24,606 nucleotides of DNA from positions 1-24,606 of IMG/VR virus record IMGVR_UViG_3300042566_000167; one strand, 5' to 3'. Position 1 is the stretch's first letter. Each line of letters begins with the position of its first letter. The translations under genes were made by a program, and so were the position numbers. The DNA comes from a virus. This document shows, one piece after another, positions 10,385 through 18,725 of the stretch. The notes under the pieces were generated by a model. It searched no databases, was not told the DNA's origin, and saw only the letters and a list, made by a program, of their open reading frames with translations.

Positions 10385-10926
10385 TAAACCTCCACCAGAC
10401 TGATAGACACATCCCATAGATCATTGTGTTGTCCTCTTTTTACAATAGTAAAATCAAAATCATCAAAGAAAACATTATACTTTTCAACATTTGTAATTGA
10501 ATTTCCAGAAACAGAGGCATCATATACTAGTAGCATCCAAAAATCTGAAAAATTTGCATCATACCAAGCTTTAATGTCTTGTCCTGCACCAAATCCATCT
10601 GAGGTAATTTTATTTGAAAGACCATCTGGAGATGCAGGTGTTGGTCTAGTTTTTCTAGAAGGAATGGCTTCCCAAGAAGTAGAAAAAGACATTTTGTCTG
10701 CAACATGAACAGAACGCATTGTTCCATCAATCATTCTTCTTCTAGACTCAATTCTTTGTGGAACAATTGATAAAGATGATCTATTATCATCAGTTAGGTA
10801 TAAGGGGGTTGATGGTGCAAAATCCCATTGTCCAGAGTTTTCTCCAGTTCCAGCAATTGGTTCTGTTAAAGAAAAAATAATTAAAGATGGTTTCCTATAA
10901 GTTTTTTGTAAGTCTGCTAGTGCCAT
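10384..10926 (-). CDS. Putative distal tail protein (Dit-like position)
   Basis: This 180-residue protein is directly downstream of the tape measure. The ATG overlaps the tape measure stop (TAATG), with AGGAG about six bases upstream. The protein is beta-rich with a central Arg/Met-containing segment (R-R-R-M-I-D-G-T-M-R-S) and a C-terminal D-L-W-D-V-S-I-S-L strand. It has no membrane segment and no catalytic motif. In siphoviruses the gene after the tape measure usually encodes the distal tail (Dit) protein that closes the tube and binds the hub. This one is shorter than classical Dit proteins (about 250 residues), so it may be only the N-terminal belt-type domain. The name rests mainly on gene order. 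Confidence 0.55.
   Translation of the reverse strand: MALADLQKTYRKPSLIIFSLTEPIAGTGENSGQWDFAPSTPLYLTDDNRSSLSIVPQRIESRRRMIDGTMRSVHVADKMSFSTSWEAIPSRKTRPTPASPDGLSNKITSDGFGAGQDIKAWYDANFSDFWMLLVYDASVSGNSITNVEKYNVFFDDFDFTIVKRGQHNDLWDVSISLVEV
10389..10393 (-). promoter_or_regulatory. Shine-Dalgarno site deciding the hub start
   Basis: GGAGG lies four bases before the ATG at 10384, inside the last codons of the upstream gene. It selects this ATG over the in-frame ATG 33 bases earlier, which has no comparable site and would force a long overlap. Confidence 0.7.
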
Positions 10927-13900
10927 TAACTACTCCTTCCAAAAGCTCTTTTATTGTCTTCCTTACCAATAGCCGTAACAATTTTTTGTGCAATCCTATT
11001 TGGATCCATCGAAGGACCAGATGCATCAACCGTGATGTTATATACGTTACTGTTAGATACCATTGTACCACTATCTACTGGAGAAATGCCAGACATTGAT
11101 GGCATACCAAATTTTAATTCTGCAATTCCATCTTTTAAGGTTTGTGTTAGTGGCTTTGTTAAAACCATTTCTCCCTTATGAAGTTGGGCAAGACCATCAG
11201 ACATTGTTTCTCCACCAATTCTCATTCCTGGGGGATTAGATCCATTTTTAAGTGCTGACCACTCAAAGTGTAGGTGAGGACCAGTAGAGTTTCCAGTATT
11301 TCCAGAATCACCAATAAAGTCTCCAGCACTAACGGACCCTCCCTTACCATGTGAATTTAAGTGGGCATACAAAGACTCTGTTCCGTCAGCATGTTTAATT
11401 GTTACATATTTTCCAAAGGAACTGTTGCCCTTGCTCAGATTAGATGCCTGTCCTCCAGCCATAGCATAAACTGGAGTTCCAGTTGGTGTTGCGTAGTCAA
11501 TGGCTGCTCCATATCTTGAACTGTGCTTATTTCCACTTGGGTAAGTTCCTCTTGCAGTTATGCCATAGGATCCACGAAGTATTCTTGCCACCTTTCCAAG
11601 TTTTTCTGGAATAGATGTTGGACTTCCAGAGCCACCACCGTCTGAATTTTCTGGTTCTTCATTCATTGCACTTGCTGCTGCAGAAACTAAAGCGTTAGCT
11701 GAATTAATTGCTGCAACTGCTGTTTTAACTCCACCAGCAAATGCTGCTGCTGATGCTGGTGCTTCGGCACCACCAACACGATATCCAATACCACCAGGAA
11801 TACCCATTCCTCCTGTATTATTAATTTTATCTAATGTGTCTTTTCCAATTCTCTTAACTGAGTCTGCCTTTACAACATATTCTCCATTTGACAATTGAGC
11901 TGGAATGGAGTCAGATGTTCCAGTTCCTGGACCAGTTACATATCCACCCTTTGCATATCCACCAGTTCCACTATTCTCTGATCCAGCCCCACCCTTACTC
12001 TTAGGCAAAGCTTTTTTAATTAAAGTCTTTAGGTCTGTTGCATTTACTCCATATTCTTTTGCAGATTTTTGCAACTCTGCATCAAATACCGATTGGAAGT
12101 TATCTCCAAATGATGTTGCAAGTTTGCTCATTGTATCTTGTGCACTCTTTGGCATATTTGCAGCAACCGAAGATATTGCATCTGCATATGCACCAAGATC
12201 TTTACCAAGTTTTTCTCCAACTGGCATATCCATAAGCTCTTGCAATTTACCCTTTGCATCATCAAATGCTCTAATTTCTGCAGACTTATTTGTTTGAATT
12301 TTTATAGCTTCTTTTTGAAGTGAAGCCATTCTCTTTTCATGGCGTTCTCCTTCTTTGTCCATAAGCTCTTGATTTTTATCTAGTTGCTCTTGTAAGTTTC
12401 CAACCGCCAAATCTGCCTGTTCTTTAATCTTATCAATTGTTTTTTCAATCTCGTCAATTCTTGCCTGAGACATTTCTTCAACTTTGCTAATTTCATTTTG
12501 TTGTGCATTTTCTTGAGCAGCAGCAGCCATTTCATTTTGTGCTTGTAGGAATCCAAATACGTCTCCACTTGCAAGTGCACCAAGACCACCAAGAGCAGTT
12601 TGTCTTTGATCGTTCTCAAAAGAGGACTGATCCTTTTGTGACTGAAGTGCATCTAGGTACTTATCAGAACTTTCTTCAATTGCATCAATTTCTTTTTCTT
12701 TTGCATTAATCTGTTCGTCTGCTGCTTTTTGAATTTGCTTAATTTCTTTTTGGATAGCCTTGTTTCGCTTTTCCATGTTCTTCTGAAAATTCTTTGTACG
12801 CTCATTTTCTGATTCTTGAGCGTTTTCATTGTTTGCAGCAAGTTGATCGTAGTATGCTGTTCTTACCTGAATTTCTTTGTCAATTTCATCAATTGCATCT
12901 TGAATCTGAGTATTAACTGTAATGTTAATTTGTTTCTGAGTATCAATTGCAGCCATTTCAGTTCTTAGTCTTTGTGCTTCATCTGCTGCCAACTTTCCAT
13001 CTGCAATAACTGTTGTTAAATCAATACCTGCAGCAGCAGCTTGTACTAGCAAGAACTGATCTTTGGTTCCTTGAACCTTATCAGTTGTATCGTCAAGTGC
13101 TGCATTCATTGTTTGAACGAACTTGCTATCCTCTTCAAATCCAAGATCCTTAGCCATTGCCTGTGCACTCTCACCTAATGCTGATGCAATATCTGCTTGA
13201 TTAGTTCCTGTTTCTGCACCCTTTTTAAATGTTGCTTCGATTGTCTTACTCATGGTTTCAAATCCTACGCCAAGATCTGGAGACATAAGAGCAGATTTAA
13301 ATGCTTGTGTAATTTGACCTTCCAAGTTTGCAAAGTCTTGATTAGAGGTTAATTTGTTTGGACCCATTACTGGGGTTACTGCCCCTCCGCCTCTTGCTGG
13401 CATTGCAATATTTCTGGTAAACAAGGCATTAATATTTCCAACTGCTGCTTGACCAACAGCTTCGGTTGCCTTAATTGCAGTTGCTTGTGCATCTACTTCT
13501 CCGTTTGCACCAGTAACTACTGTTTGATTTAATGTTCCAGAAACACTTTGAAGTGCTCCCATTTTTCCACTTGCCTGGGCTAAAACAGATAAAACTTCTT
13601 TTGCTTGTTCAGGATTAAATCCTTGCTGCAACATCTTCCCATATTGACCAAGGAATATTGATGATGGGTCATTAGACTTTCTAATTTCTTCTACAAGTTT
13701 TTTATTTTCTTCTTGTTCTAAGATTGATTGTTTTAGGGCTGGATCAACAGTTGCTGCAGTTGGTGCTGCTGCAAGACCCATCTCTTTTGCAATTTTAACA
13801 TTTTCTGCCATTGCAGCATTAACGTTTAGTAATTCAATTCCATAATATTCTGCAGCCTTAGTTTGTTCTGCATATAAAGATTCTCCAGCTTTTTTAGCAT

Positions 13901-16900
13901 TATCAATTGATTTTTGATAAGCAACAAACGCTGCAGTGCCAAGGGCAATTGCTGCAAGAACTGCCATTCCAGCTGGTCCAGTTGCAATACCAATTGCGGA
14001 AAGAGTGCCTCTAGCAAGCATTCCACCTTTGCCAGCTTTTCCAGCCTTATCTGCTAAGCCTCCCATGACTCTTCCAGCACCGACTTTTTTCTTAGCATCT
14101 TCAAGGGCATTTGGGTTATTAATTGGGTACTGTCTTCCACCTCTAATAAAGTCCATGGTTGATGTTCCACTTCCAAATGCTCCAGACTTTATTCCTCTGG
14201 CTTTGGCACCAACACTCATTCCTGCTCCACCAATACCACGAACTTGGGCAATTGTAGTAATTGCTGATAAGGCAATCATTGCTGTGGTTAAAGAGTTTGT
14301 AAATCCAGAAAGAGCTTCATTTGTTCCAGTAAGAGCTGGGAGCATAAATGCTCCAGTCATTGCTAGACCGCCAACAGCACCTGCTTTTTGTCCTCTAAGT
14401 GCTTTCTTTTGAGCCTTAATATCTTGCCCATCTCTAATTCCATCTTCAGCCATCTTTGCATCTACCCAGGCTTCTTCTGCTACAACTTGACCACTAGCCA
14501 TTTTAACTGGCTTGTTGTTTCTAGTTGTTACTACCTTTCCAGACTCTTCATGATCTTTTATTTGCTCTTTAGTTAAGGCTCCACCAGTTGCTCTTCTTGG
14601 GGTACTAGGAACTCGTCCTCTTCCACCAACTGGGACCGATCCAAGATATCTCTTCATTTCTGGAGAATCATCCTTGTCTGGGTATACAGTTCCTGCCTTG
14701 CCAATTCCTGCTGTTATTTTGTACGCTGGATCACCTGCGTTTAATGCATTTGTTGCTCTAATATATTCTAAAGTTTTTGGAGTTATTGATCCATTGGATT
14801 CTAAAATTGATAATGCTGATAAAAACTTTTTTCTTGCTTCTCCAGATACTGGGTGGTTTCCAGAAAGAATTGATTTAATTTGAGCTGGTGTTGCTTTAGC
14901 TTGTTTCAGTGCATCTCTAAACGCTGCGGTGTTTCCTTTCTCTGCGTCTACACCACCTCTAGTAAGATATTCAAATGCTAGGTTTTCTACCTTTGGCATC
15001 CATGCAAGTTTTGGAGGAAGCCATCTCTTATATGTTTTACCATCAATTGTAACTAAGTCTTTTTGTAAGTGACCAGCTTCAACCTTAGAAAATCTGTCAA
15101 TATCAGAATCACTAAAGTAGCCTGATTCTTTTAACTTAGCTCTAATAGCTGCTTCCATTGGATTTATTATTGCAAGGCTATCTTCTTTATTTCTTATTTT
15201 TCCAATTACTGCAGGTCTTCCAGTTCCAGGGTTAGCTCTTCCTGGCTTGCTTGTAAGCCTTCCAAGATCATTTACCATGTTTCTTGAATTTTCAGATTTA
15301 GAAGACTTAAATTTTTCACCAATCTCTAGCAAGAAATCTTTAGTGATAAGACTAGTTTTAGTTTGTCCAGTTCCTGTATTTAATCTTTTAGTTAAAGAGT
15401 CTACAATAATTTTTGCATCTTTTTTATTGTCAACACGAGATAATGTTTTAGTTAGCCAGTCATCAAGTGGGAGCTGACTTCCTGTTTTTACATTTGTTTT
15501 TATAAGGTCTTCTAAAGCACTATATCCAGGAACTGATCCACCTTCAATAAGTTTTATAAAGCCACCATTTGCATAAGCCCATGGCAAACCGCCAGTTCCT
15601 TGAGCATGACCTCTTTGTCTAGCTTTTTCTACAAGCTCTGCTTGTTTCTTTGCAAGTGCAGCAGCAGTTGGAGACTTAGCAGCAGTAAGACTTAATCCAG
15701 AATGATGTGCGTGTAATGCTCTCCAGTCAATGCCTCTTGCATCCTCTAAGTCAGTAACGATTCCCTGATACATTTTCTTTTCAGCAGGTGTCATATTTGG
15801 AAGCTTGTTAATTGCACCCTTTGTTTTTCCAAGAGCATCATCAATTTTTGCCAAAAACATAGATTCATATTTTTCTGGTGTCATGCTTCTTGCAATATCA
15901 CCAGTTGATTCTGCAAACCATTTTTTAGCCCCACCCTTTTGTGCTAAGAAATTAATTAGTGCTTGTTCTTCAACTGGAGTTTTAGGTCCACCAACTGTTC
16001 TTGGCTGGGAAGCCCTATTTGCTACAAAACCTGATCCTACATCTGTTACTGTTCTTCCAAAAAGATTATCTGGCTGTAAGTCATTATCTCTTCTAATAAT
16101 AGAAGCCAATGCCTGTGAAGCAAAATCTTCTGGGTCAATTTTTCCAGTTGATTTGGCAAATGCTTCATCGTATGGAGATCTAACAGCAAACATTTGCTCG
16201 CCAGTTCTAGGATGTGCAATTTTAATCATTTCTTGATTTGGAGTGTTTAGTCCAAATATGTCTCTTGTTAACTGTGTTCCTCTTGCCTCAACAAGTGCGG
16301 AGTCAGAATCTGTATGACCCTTAACAACATATTTTTTACCATTAATTTCATAGACACCATTTACTCCTGGAATTGCAGAACTAAATCCGCCAATGCTAGA
16401 TGATCTTGTTCCAAGTTCCGTTAATGGCATAGAAGCAAATCTTCCTGTTTTTGCTTCTTGATCTGCCTTTCTTAAAAGACCTCTAACATTTCCAATTCTT
16501 TCTGAAAACTTTTCTGGCATACCAAGGAATAAAGGCTTTCCTCCACCACGATTTAATCTAATTGGACCACCATTTTGGAATCTTGGAGCCTGATTAAAAT
16601 TAATTTCTTCTAGCATAGGACCAAACTTTTTAGCTGCTTTTTTATTTACTACAAATTCTCCAGGCTCAAGTAGTGCTGGAACCTTATCTCCGTCTCCATT
16701 TCCAGGAACGTAAGGTTGCCCTCCTTGCTGAAGTTTTGCTTTCTTTCCTCCACCTTTTGGAGATCTTCCTCCAGCAGTAGTACCAGGCATAAACAATCTA
16801 TTGCTTAACCTAACTTCTTCTCTTAGGTTTGCAAGATATCCTTCCATAGTTAAATTTAACTTGTCAAGAGATGCTTTTTGATTATTGTAAGCTCTTGCAA

Positions 16901-18725
16901 GAACATCTGATGCTTTAGATGCTGCAAGCTGAGTGTCATCTAGCATTTCAAATTTTTCTGTTCTTAAACCTGCAAGTGAGGCACCAAGCTTAGTAATAGA
17001 CATTGCAGATTTAGTTATGTATCCTGCAAAGTTTGCAAATACACCAACAAGCATAATCAAAGGTCCTGCAATTAAGGTAAATCCTGTTGCAACCTTTAAG
17101 AAGCTTTTAACTGGTCCTGGAAGACCACTTGCATATTCAACAAGCATACCAATAAGAGTAGCTGTTTTTTCAAGGAAAGGAATTACTGAATTTGTTAAAA
17201 CTTCACCAACTGGAAGTAAAGATGCCTTAATTGCTTCCATAGATCTTTGAAAACGCATAGCTGATGATTCTGTAAGAGTTCTAATTTCAGAGTTTGCAAT
17301 TTTTGCAAGGTCTTGAGAAGAAGCCCCCATAAGTTTTAAAACCTCTACTGTTTGTGATCCTGAAGCATTTAGGTTATCAAACAAGGCAGAAATTCTTGCA
17401 AACTGATATTTACCAAAAAGCTGTTCAATAAGTTGTGCTTTTGCAAACTGATCAAGACCTGCAAGTGCTTCCTGGAAAGCCATAATTGTTGGCATGAGCT
17501 TTCCCTTGTTTGCTTTTACAATTCCATCTAGATCAATTCCATATTGCTTTGCAGTAATTGATGCTTGTTTTGTTGGGTTGATAAGGGAGGCGAGACCAGA
17601 CTTGATAGCATTTGCACCTTCGGCTGCATTCACGCCTCCCTCTTTCATTGCTACAAGTAAAACTGCTAAGTCTTTGACATCTCCGCCAAGAGAGTTAACA
17701 ACTGGACCAACACGAGGGATTGCTTCAGTTAAATCTTGGAGTGATGCAGATGTCTGGTTTTCAACGGCGTTAAGGAAGTTAATTGACTCTGCCAATTCGT
17801 TTGTACTCATATTAAAAGCACCTTGAAGAGCGAGGGTTGCCTTCATTGCTTCTTGTCTATCAACCTCACCAAGTACGGCTAGGCGTGTTGTTTGTGCAAC
17901 TGAGTCTAAAAGTTTTTGTCCTTCTAGTCCAGTTGCTGCCAAGTCTGCTGCCAGACCTGCTGTTTCTTTTGCTGCTATACCATATTTACCAGCAAAGTCT
18001 TTTGATAATTGCTCAACTTGAGACCTCATTGTATTTGTTGCTTGTTGATTTGCACCAACAAGATCTGAACCATAAACTTTGGCAAATCTTGTAAGTTCTT
18101 TATCTACTTCTCTAAACGTTTTAGATACTGTTGCACCAAAAATTGTCAATGGTACAGTAAGACCAACAGTAAGCTGACGACCTGCCCACTGTGTATTTTT
18201 ACCCCAGTTAATAAGCTGAGTTGCACCATCATTTACAAGTTTATTAAAGATAGAAAATTGTTTTTGGCTAATAGCCATTTTTGTATTAATGTCAGATGTG
18301 TCAATTGTAAGGGGGGTGATAAGCATTCCTTGCTGACGACCCTTTTGGTTTTGCCCCATACCAACAAGTTGAGACTGTGCTCTTCTTACTTCATCTTCAG
18401 CAAGCCTTCTAGCCATGCTATTTTTTTTGTAAGCCTGTGCTGCCTCTTTGTAGTATTGACGAAGAGTTAATTGATTTTTTTGAAGGGCTTTTCCAAATCT
18501 TTCTACGTCACTGGTAAGGTCTACAATTTGAGCATTAAACCCTCCAACGTTTCCAAGACTGGACATGAAAGAACCTGCACGAGCATTTCTTACCTTATTG
18601 GCTTCACTGTCAAGAGACTTAAACGCAGCATTAAGTACAGTAATGTCTTTTACAAGTGATCGAATTTGAGTTTGGAGAGGACCAAAATTTGCATCAAAAC
18701 CAAACGTAGACCTAACATCAGTCAT
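10926..18725 (-). CDS. Giant tape measure protein with M23 peptidase and kinase-like insert
   Basis: This 2599-residue protein sets tail length and fills the tube. The start ATG overlaps the chaperone stop (TAATG). Layout: residues 1-160 helical; ~190-470 tape-measure core (TP901-type, rich in A-A-x-L-A-A-T-G patterns); ~546-568 hydrophobic segment; ~666-702 Gly-Gly linker ending G-E-F-V-V-N; ~745-1030 kinase-like insert; ~1062-1375 unrecognised helical insert; ~1452-1496 and ~1572-1602 hydrophobic, possibly membrane-inserting segments; ~1912-2162 long charged coiled coil; ~2255-2303 second Gly-Gly linker with G-E-Y-V-V; ~2385-2500 M23 peptidase; then a third linker (H-K-G-E-M-V) and a short tail. 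Tape measures run roughly 0.15 nm per residue, so even after removing inserts a long tail is expected. Sites for tail-tip cleavage are not evident. Confidence 0.95.
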   Translation of the reverse strand: MTDVRSTFGFDANFGPLQTQIRSLVKDITVLNAAFKSLDSEANKVRNARAGSFMSSLGNVGGFNAQIVDLTSDVERFGKALQKNQLTLRQYYKEAAQAYKKNSMARRLAEDEVRRAQSQLVGMGQNQKGRQQGMLITPLTIDTSDINTKMAISQKQFSIFNKLVNDGATQLINWGKNTQWAGRQLTVGLTVPLTIFGATVSKTFREVDKELTRFAKVYGSDLVGANQQATNTMRSQVEQLSKDFAGKYGIAAKETAGLAADLAATGLEGQKLLDSVAQTTRLAVLGEVDRQEAMKATLALQGAFNMSTNELAESINFLNAVENQTSASLQDLTEAIPRVGPVVNSLGGDVKDLAVLLVAMKEGGVNAAEGANAIKSGLASLINPTKQASITAKQYGIDLDGIVKANKGKLMPTIMAFQEALAGLDQFAKAQLIEQLFGKYQFARISALFDNLNASGSQTVEVLKLMGASSQDLAKIANSEIRTLTESSAMRFQRSMEAIKASLLPVGEVLTNSVIPFLEKTATLIGMLVEYASGLPGPVKSFLKVATGFTLIAGPLIMLVGVFANFAGYITKSAMSITKLGASLAGLRTEKFEMLDDTQLAASKASDVLARAYNNQKASLDKLNLTMEGYLANLREEVRLSNRLFMPGTTAGGRSPKGGGKKAKLQQGGQPYVPGNGDGDKVPALLEPGEFVVNKKAAKKFGPMLEEINFNQAPRFQNGGPIRLNRGGGKPLFLGMPEKFSERIGNVRGLLRKADQEAKTGRFASMPLTELGTRSSSIGGFSSAIPGVNGVYEINGKKYVVKGHTDSDSALVEARGTQLTRDIFGLNTPNQEMIKIAHPRTGEQMFAVRSPYDEAFAKSTGKIDPEDFASQALASIIRRDNDLQPDNLFGRTVTDVGSGFVANRASQPRTVGGPKTPVEEQALINFLAQKGGAKKWFAESTGDIARSMTPEKYESMFLAKIDDALGKTKGAINKLPNMTPAEKKMYQGIVTDLEDARGIDWRALHAHHSGLSLTAAKSPTAAALAKKQAELVEKARQRGHAQGTGGLPWAYANGGFIKLIEGGSVPGYSALEDLIKTNVKTGSQLPLDDWLTKTLSRVDNKKDAKIIVDSLTKRLNTGTGQTKTSLITKDFLLEIGEKFKSSKSENSRNMVNDLGRLTSKPGRANPGTGRPAVIGKIRNKEDSLAIINPMEAAIRAKLKESGYFSDSDIDRFSKVEAGHLQKDLVTIDGKTYKRWLPPKLAWMPKVENLAFEYLTRGGVDAEKGNTAAFRDALKQAKATPAQIKSILSGNHPVSGEARKKFLSALSILESNGSITPKTLEYIRATNALNAGDPAYKITAGIGKAGTVYPDKDDSPEMKRYLGSVPVGGRGRVPSTPRRATGGALTKEQIKDHEESGKVVTTRNNKPVKMASGQVVAEEAWVDAKMAEDGIRDGQDIKAQKKALRGQKAGAVGGLAMTGAFMLPALTGTNEALSGFTNSLTTAMIALSAITTIAQVRGIGGAGMSVGAKARGIKSGAFGSGTSTMDFIRGGRQYPINNPNALEDAKKKVGAGRVMGGLADKAGKAGKGGMLARGTLSAIGIATGPAGMAVLAAIALGTAAFVAYQKSIDNAKKAGESLYAEQTKAAEYYGIELLNVNAAMAENVKIAKEMGLAAAPTAATVDPALKQSILEQEENKKLVEEIRKSNDPSSIFLGQYGKMLQQGFNPEQAKEVLSVLAQASGKMGALQSVSGTLNQTVVTGANGEVDAQATAIKATEAVGQAAVGNINALFTRNIAMPARGGGAVTPVMGPNKLTSNQDFANLEGQITQAFKSALMSPDLGVGFETMSKTIEATFKKGAETGTNQADIASALGESAQAMAKDLGFEEDSKFVQTMNAALDDTTDKVQGTKDQFLLVQAAAAGIDLTTVIADGKLAADEAQRLRTEMAAIDTQKQINITVNTQIQDAIDEIDKEIQVRTAYYDQLAANNENAQESENERTKNFQKNMEKRNKAIQKEIKQIQKAADEQINAKEKEIDAIEESSDKYLDALQSQKDQSSFENDQRQTALGGLGALASGDVFGFLQAQNEMAAAAQENAQQNEISKVEEMSQARIDEIEKTIDKIKEQADLAVGNLQEQLDKNQELMDKEGERHEKRMASLQKEAIKIQTNKSAEIRAFDDAKGKLQELMDMPVGEKLGKDLGAYADAISSVAANMPKSAQDTMSKLATSFGDNFQSVFDAELQKSAKEYGVNATDLKTLIKKALPKSKGGAGSENSGTGGYAKGGYVTGPGTGTSDSIPAQLSNGEYVVKADSVKRIGKDTLDKINNTGGMGIPGGIGYRVGGAEAPASAAAFAGGVKTAVAAINSANALVSAAASAMNEEPENSDGGGSGSPTSIPEKLGKVARILRGSYGITARGTYPSGNKHSSRYGAAIDYATPTGTPVYAMAGGQASNLSKGNSSFGKYVTIKHADGTESLYAHLNSHGKGGSVSAGDFIGDSGNTGNSTGPHLHFEWSALKNGSNPPGMRIGGETMSDGLAQLHKGEMVLTKPLTQTLKDGIAELKFGMPSMSGISPVDSGTMVSNSNVYNITVDASGPSMDPNRIAQKIVTAIGKEDNKRAFGRSS
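11226..11573 (-). other. M23 (lysostaphin-type) peptidase domain in the tape measure
   Basis: Residues ~2385-2500 of the tape measure. Visible ligands and catalytic residues are H2401 and D2410 (in K-H-S-S-R-Y-G-A-A-I-D-Y), H2455 (Y-A-H-L) and H2486 (H-L-H-F-E, residues 2484-2488). The first His and Asp are nine positions apart instead of the compact H-x-x-x-D, a spacing also seen in some M23 members with an insertion. The domain should cut peptidoglycan cross-bridges as the tape measure is released during DNA entry. All key residues are present, so activity is expected. Confidence 0.9.
14600..15540 (-). other. Unrecognised helical insert in the tape measure
   Basis: Residues ~1062-1375 lie between the linkers G-G-F-I-K-L-I-E-G-G-S and A-T-G-G-A-L-T-K. 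The segment is helical and charged, with a K-R-W-L-P-P-K-L-A-W-M-P phrase and a run of basic helices. It is not typical tape-measure heptad sequence. No catalytic motif is recognised, and it may be one or two small domains. Confidence 0.4.
15636..16493 (-). other. Kinase-fold-like domain inserted in the tape measure
   Basis: Residues ~745-1030 of the tape measure. It has a beta strand with Y-V-V-K (K802), then A-L-V-E-A-R (E813), a helix ending F-G-L-N-T-P, later N-D-L-Q-P-D-N-L (D882, N887) and D-V-G-S-G-F (D895). This matches the Lys/Glu/catalytic Asp-Asn/metal Asp order of atypical kinases (PI-kinase or HipA-like). The N887 to D895 gap of seven residues is shorter than usual, so the fold is a hypothesis. 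Gly-Gly linkers border it on both sides. Confidence 0.5.

Follow-up and report, generated by a model that had tools for sequence, protein, structure and literature searches.

Tape measure proteins (TMPs) are known as rulers of phage tails and as carriers of wall-cutting domains, and a segment with the active-site residues of a kinase in the interior of one raises the question of what such a segment is and what it could do for the phage. The window considered here (the whole stretch of viral DNA that was analysed, 24,606 nucleotides) encodes such a protein. An earlier note made from the sequence alone had likened the segment to atypical kinases of the PI-kinase and HipA kind, and had proposed that it might be delivered to the host when the TMP passes through the tail. 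We report here on its position, conservation, predicted fold and distribution, and weigh what it may do.

The kinase-like segment belongs to a tape measure protein

The minus-strand frame that holds the segment has the marks of a TMP. Its residues 239-438 match PhageMin_Tail in Pfam (1.3e-27), many PHROGs tape-measure families match it, with phrog_10030 at the top (3e-140), and it is the largest frame between the tail chaperone region and the minor tail genes. Matches in the ten adjoining frames scanned include a major head protein, a head-tail adaptor, an Ig-domain protein and minor tail proteins, and the window's head and tail genes follow the order annotated in Streptomyces phage Faust. Residues 745-1030, to which the kinase-like motifs had been assigned, correspond exactly to window positions 15636-16493, and K802, E813, D882, N887 and D895, as well as the motifs D-L-Q-P-D-N at 882-887 and D-V-G-S-G-F starting at 895, all lie where they had been placed in frame 10926-18725 (Table 1). 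The kinase-fold domain is flanked by the hydrophobic stretches at 541-570 and 1575-1596, with weaker ones by hydropathy at about 1447-1502. Antisense to it, an open frame of 143 aa runs on the plus strand at 15805-16236, and is probably mechanical.

Table 1. Features of the tape measure protein and its kinase-bearing module (window coordinates)
Feature	Position	Strand	Basis
Tape measure protein (TMP), 2599 aa	10926..18725	-	PhageMin_Tail, Peptidase_M23, phrog_10030
TMP core, residues 1-616, common to kinase-free TMPs	16878..18725	-	Core comparisons
Hydrophobic stretch, residues 541-570	17016..17105	-	Hydropathy
Linker ahead of module, residues 666-705, contains GDKVPALLEPGEFVV at 679	16611..16730	-	Sequence copies
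Module, residues 730-1144, absent from close relative L168	15294..16538	-	Comparison with L168
Kinase-fold domain (predicted), residues ~764-1009	15699..16436	-	AlphaFold2 model; span of most kinase alignments
Glycine-rich segment ahead of ATP-lysine strand, residues 779-793	16347..16391	-	G780, S782, G790 58/58
K802, predicted ATP lysine	16320..16322	-	58/58; aligned to HipA K181
E813, predicted helix-C glutamate	16287..16289	-	56/58
Catalytic loop (predicted) D882-L-Q-P-D-N887	16065..16082	-	D882, N887 58/58; on HipA D309, N314
D895, predicted metal-binding aspartate	16041..16043	-	58/58
Second insert segment, fast-evolving, residues 1145-1420	14466..15293	-	L168 comparison, relatives among fetched frames
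Hydrophobic stretch, residues 1575-1596	13938..14003	-	Hydropathy
Peptidase_M23 domain, residues 2408-2494	11244..11504	-	Pfam, 5.1e-23

Four predicted active-site residues are invariant across the family

To the window we added 78 loci, namely 77 of the 80 listed in our third scan of viral contigs (L024, L025 and L029 were left out) and L021 from an earlier scan, and the 79 translated regions were reduced to 58 aligned rows by dropping identical domains. Across these distinct homologous domains the ATP lysine, helix-C glutamate, catalytic Asp-x4-Asn and metal aspartate stand in kinase order, with the four positions K802, D882, N887 and D895 invariant throughout; R878, D880, L883, G897, A905, S906 and R909 are likewise present in all 58. 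The earlier note had made its kinase reading depend on the conservation of K802, D882 and D895 in homologues, and nothing in the alignment speaks against it. An alignment of 50 sequences, in which identity to the window falls as low as 35%, has 23 invariant positions out of 341, and on that basis the probability that four pre-named positions would all be invariant at random is 1.6e-5. Because these residues were named beforehand from one sequence and were then found invariant in 58 domains, their conservation is more than chance. A second alignment, headed by the distant member L097 and including two rows that are only 27% identical to it, gives the same picture, with the equivalents of K802, D882, N887 and D895 invariant in 41 of 41 rows and that of E813 nearly so.

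The shortness of the interval between N887 and D895 had been raised as a caution. It is indeed short, but its length is a fixed property of the family: the gap is 8 residues in every one of the 58 rows, free of indels, and both AlphaFold2 models described below build the stretch as two short strands and a turn. The median dN/dS of the domain is low (0.146, with a maximum of 0.551, over 82 non-independent pairs with usable dS of 85 computed), and the domain is therefore under purifying selection. With its catalytic residues all present, the kinase domain is apparently intact, and the glycine-rich segment at 779-793 is a putative nucleotide loop.

The predicted fold is that of a kinase

AlphaFold2 models were obtained for the window domain (pLDDT 83.3, pTM 0.82; 17 sequences) and for that of L097 (pLDDT 91.7, pTM 0.89; 41 sequences), and both are predicted to adopt the two-lobed kinase fold. 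For the window model, kinases occupy all 50 of the best Foldseek rows from the PDB, with CtkA, HipT and HipA in the lead (we take the entries labelled MDT to be HipA). For L097, 45 of the 50 best rows carry kinase names; of those left over, two are PAN2-PAN3, two are P-TEFb complexes, in which a kinase is a component, and one is an axonemal chain. The E values are modest, at best 1.2e-4 for the window and 9.2e-4 for L097, with five matches and one match, respectively, at or below 0.001, and the TM-scores of both models against the PDB are low, at about 0.15-0.40.

A refined aligner, which only re-ranks the Foldseek chains and for which best Z values of 7-8 are common when there is no clear match, returned kinase-fold proteins in all listed rows of both comparisons, with best Z values (11.2 and 10.8) that exceed this range. 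The window model aligned with CtkA at Z 11.2 (4.6 Å, 205 residues), CotH kinase at 10.8 (4.1 Å, 218), MavQ at 10.2, PI4K-II at 9.5 (4.7 Å, 208) and HipA at 8.9 (4.2 Å, 190), and the L097 model with CtkA at 10.8 (4.4 Å, 204), PI4K-II at 10.1 (but with an rmsd of 10.4 Å), Golgi casein kinase at 9.2 (4.2 Å, 204) and HipT at 8.9 (4.5 Å, 193). The match to PI4K-II is similar to those of several other kinase families. CtkA, CotH kinase, PI4K-II and Golgi casein kinase, all atypical kinases with solved structures, are the best refined fold matches, and they differ from the TMP domain as proteins and in their contexts, at 8-16% identity. A confident non-kinase fold was looked for, and both models gave kinase matches instead. 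Taking the two predicted structures together with the residue conservation and the weak HipA profile match described below, the kinase-like reading is borne out, and residues ~764-1009 almost certainly have a kinase fold.

Among viral proteins in BFVD, the best fold matches of the window model are A0A6J5S481 and A0A6J5MJB0 (E 1.5e-5 and 3.3e-5), uncultured-phage proteins that are annotated as HK97 portal or PI3/4-kinase, not as TMPs, and are likened to the domain by fold alone. If these models are a guide, other virion proteins may hold kinase folds. Together with A0A6J5NE85 and A0A6J5SGR0, they are large uncultured-phage proteins that match the kinase model.

Sequence comparison with HipA and other kinases

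The sequence of the domain is remote from characterised kinases. No Pfam, PHROGs or NCBIfam model names it a kinase above cut-off, but a weak HipA match lies in catalytic register. This match came from hhalign against eleven HipA-family proteins, one from E. coli K-12 and ten from plasmids, and consists of two collinear pieces. The first places the surroundings of K802 on the K181 segment of HipA, with a shared G-L-N-x-P after helix C (score 25.9, E 0.019, probability 2.5%), and the second aligns D882 with D309 and N887 with N314 (score 18.0, E 0.22, probability 0.3%). None of 300 column-shuffled HipA alignments reached 25.9 (top 24.5) and 34 of 300 reached 18, so that the first piece narrowly exceeds what shuffling produces, while the interest of the second lies in its register alone. 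The catalytic roles of K181 and N314 in HipA are assumed here, and D309Q is named in the title of a HipA PDB entry among the Foldseek matches. E. coli HipA alone matched the domain over only 19 columns (E 0.11), and a forced global alignment failed.

Curated models gave little more. HipA_2 (PF20613) was found below threshold in 2 of 17 members (best 0.026) and in none of 16 phage records, the window's among them, at E<=1; HipA_C (PF07804) was not among the Pfam matches of the window TMP or of the members; and PI3/PI4 kinase (PF00454) was absent from 21 records at E<=1 and from the Pfam results for the window TMP and the members. Scanning viral contigs with HipA brought up nothing beyond near-identical copies of the E. 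coli protein, and two phage records matched in a HipA search. The TMP domain resembles HipA and HipT in predicted fold and, by the weak alignment above, may share the placing of their catalytic residues; it differs from them in having no significant sequence membership of the family and in the 8-residue loop that joins Asn to the metal Asp. It differs also in setting, since HipA is a stand-alone toxin with a HipB-type antitoxin gene, whereas the present domain lies inside a structural protein, the 2599-aa TMP. The domain defines a kinase-fold family that is unrecognised by the domain libraries searched.

Two other matches were considered and rejected. A match of Acyl-CoA_dh_M to part of the N-lobe (8e-5; 23.2 bits, cut-off 33.3) is below threshold, occurs in few members (4 of 17 and 2 of 41) and conflicts with the fold. 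Among solved structures, searching by sequence brought up no kinase. The best profile match there was a spike-derived helical construct (whole-sequence E 2.5e-5), made up of three weak repeat hits along the profile's helical tail, which we judged to reflect helix composition.

Gain, loss and exchange of the kinase-bearing module

Comparison with the close relative L168 delimits the module. The TMP of L168 is 90% identical over window residues 1-729, and the alignment picks up again at 1145, at 58% identity. Between these points the window has 415 residues, the kinase among them, whereas L168 has about 71 that are peculiar to it. L168 retains a divergent version of the segment that follows (1145-1420), for which the frames examined supplied few relatives, most of them copies. 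The TMPs of phages Faust and Yaboi (2101 and 2093 aa) also have no kinase, and match the window core to residues 616 and 602, the C-terminus from about 2401-2408 and, weakly, the coiled region.

Among the best 80 TMP cores in viral contigs, kinase sequence was present in 38 frames, and the frames with an intact 3' end divide into 24 of 46 with the kinase and 22 of 46 without. A permissive profile search of the latter for hidden copies found none that was convincing (the lowest full-sequence E, 0.029, came from the C-terminal part of the profile, which is helical). Since nearly half of these related TMPs do without it, the module is not needed for tail length or for DNA entry as such. Two kinase-free frames, L214 (1263 aa) and L239 (984 aa), are unusually short with their stops intact, and could be broken or split genes or assembly errors. 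At the corresponding place (about 620-1560), seven kinase-free TMPs (L181, L183, L185, L186, L187, L221 and L243) have other long sequence, possibly other modules; in ten kinase-free TMPs this region produced weak Pfam matches, none of them above cut-off.

The linker G-D-x-V/I-P-A-L-L-E-P-G-E-F-V lies just ahead of the module in the window, and in L169 and L184 it flanks the kinase-bearing segment on either side. Among the 77 distinct TMPs that have core and kinase, the pairwise identities of the two are correlated (Spearman 0.65), but some cases depart clearly from the trend: the kinases of L051 and L075 are 77% identical on cores that are 34% identical, L032 and L033 have 81% and 52%, respectively, and the core of L210 is 91-94% identical to those of twelve listed others with kinases at only 58-64%. 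Given this discordance, the kinase module looks to have been exchanged between TMPs.

Distribution and probable hosts

Successively broader scans of viral contigs found 8, 20, 196 and 409 stretches coding for relatives of the domain, and the matches listed by the two broadest scans (80 and 37 more) come from at least 117 distinct contigs. Two pattern scans of bacterial genomes, which could miss divergent copies, gave 29 and 58 candidate stretches, none of them confirmed. The window domain had no match in named phages or plasmids and two distant members had none in named phages, and no second copy of the domain was seen in 25 phage records chosen as domain-bearing, each of which gave one match.

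The TMP core matches 289 named phage records, of which 127 are from Streptomyces and 105 from Gordonia, all at less than 60% identity. WhiB, which is used as a mark of actinobacterial phages in the available text of PMC6802176, is encoded by 10 of 21 long domain-bearing records and is absent from the window's two closest relatives (G001 and G003), although these records may be fragments. The core matches and the presence of WhiB point to actinobacterial hosts, short of proof; the G+C content of the window is 37%.

Discussion

Our comparisons suggest that this phage lineage gains, loses and swaps an apparently intact kinase domain in its tape measure, and may inject an enzyme that tags host molecules along with its DNA. 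The domain would be an atypical kinase of the HipA, PI-kinase or CotH kind with its catalytic residues intact, carried as an exchangeable module in the TMP of a siphophage related to phages of Actinobacteria. It is quite probably an active nucleotide-dependent transferase. It would travel in the tail as part of the TMP and be ejected as the genome enters, along with the M23 end that cuts the wall, after which it would draw on cellular ATP to phosphorylate a host or envelope target as infection begins. With the M23 end in the wall, an even number of membrane spans would leave the kinase facing the cytoplasm, where ATP is found, and an odd number would not. We lean slightly toward action after ejection rather than during assembly only, and give the full reading, in which an active atypical kinase is ejected with the TMP and modifies a host target at entry, about an even chance.

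An ejected, active kinase is favoured here because of accounts of TMP ejection and membrane insertion and because of precedents among TMP-related effectors and a kinase-type toxin. In the available text of two papers, TMPs are described as ejected and membrane-inserted, and Tme and Sle1 as TMP-related effectors of contractile injection systems (PMC13277306, PMC11126660). As far as those texts go, these effectors resemble the present protein in having a TMP-like carrier, hydrophobic segments and exchangeable functional domains, and differ in coming from non-infectious bacterial nanomachines, with an endonuclease on Tme and diverse functional domains on Sle1 (PMC11126660, PMC13277306). The Sle1 work also mentions, in the text at hand, that some actinobacterial phage TMPs bear C-terminal motifs that possibly modulate host physiology (PMC11126660, PMC13277306); the word kinase is absent from PMC13277306 and occurs once in PMC11126660. 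According to the accessible portion of PMC3482391, the phage-tail-like PVC system comes with a toxin domain of the kinase type.

Several considerations count against this reading as a whole. The hhalign probabilities are low, the best shuffle (24.5) comes close to the observed score of 25.9, and the TM-scores are low as well. A folded domain of such a size would be awkward in a narrow tail tube, which argues against ejection. In addition, a gene transfer agent TMP is thought to reach the periplasm, according to the part of PMC7296036 available to us, and such a fate would speak against kinase action, as ATP would be scarce there.

Alternatively, the kinase may be active in the producing cell, where it would phosphorylate tail proteins, chaperones or the TMP itself during assembly, or else a late host target, as a means of excluding other phages for instance, and its place in the virion would be incidental. 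The TMP is a late structural protein, which is in keeping with this idea. So is a HipA-like kinase of gut phages, which in the available text sits between late genes and for which a late action was proposed, perhaps one that confers immunity to other phages (PMC8008677). That the module is swapped and lost while the TMP cores stay nearly unchanged suits an accessory role better than a step in assembly, but a late accessory function would suit that pattern equally well. On balance we regard action in the producing cell as rather unlikely, though it is the main rival and deserves serious consideration.

Kinase folds can also support other chemistry, SelO and SidJ being examples for AMP transfer and amino-acid ligation. 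A domain that is remote from characterised kinases, matches no library model and has invariant residues of its own with no assigned kinase role (such as A905, S906 and R909) might catalyse a reaction of this sort, delivered or not. Its K, D, N and D in standard kinase order and register argue otherwise, and we consider other chemistry rather improbable. That the fold is inactive and is retained as a spacer or binding domain would agree with its dispensability in 22 of 46 related TMP frames, but the four catalytic residues invariant in 58 of 58 domains and the low dN/dS make this very unlikely. That the motifs match by chance on a non-kinase fold is barely credible, despite the lack of a curated kinase match and the sub-threshold Acyl-CoA_dh_M over part of the N-lobe, because kinases head every PDB fold list of the two models and the Acyl-CoA_dh_M match is below cut-off and confined to few members.

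Returning to a kinase that is carried in the tail, the kinase fold and enzyme-bearing TMPs are both known, and it is their combination and the exchangeability of the domain that appear to be new. No report of a kinase in a tape measure was found among the titles or abstract openings of the open-access papers retrieved. Like TMPs with muralytic domains, the present protein has an enzymatic domain within a tape measure, and it has an M23 peptidase besides; theirs cut the wall, whereas the TMP kinase would transfer phosphate. Other phage kinases, namely the T7 kinase, the 933W kinase, CotH-lectin proteins and the HipA-like kinase of Gratiaviridae, are described in the available text of PMC8008677. 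They are similarly phage-encoded, and one is HipA-like and encoded among virion genes, but they are separate proteins or fused to lectin, and the term tape measure does not occur in that paper (PMC8008677).

A more speculative possibility, which we put forward tentatively, is that, in the siphophage TMPs of this lineage, a polymorphic slot for effectors separates the core from the later hydrophobic segments, and that the domain represents a new family of atypical kinases that is preloaded in the tail, released at entry and able to modify host proteins before the phage genes are expressed. If a kinase is indeed delivered in this way, the tail lumen of a widespread group of environmental phages would serve to deliver a signalling enzyme. 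The arrangement would have its parallel in the TMP-related effectors of contractile injection systems, and it would offer a mechanism for taking over the host at entry that is open to direct test.
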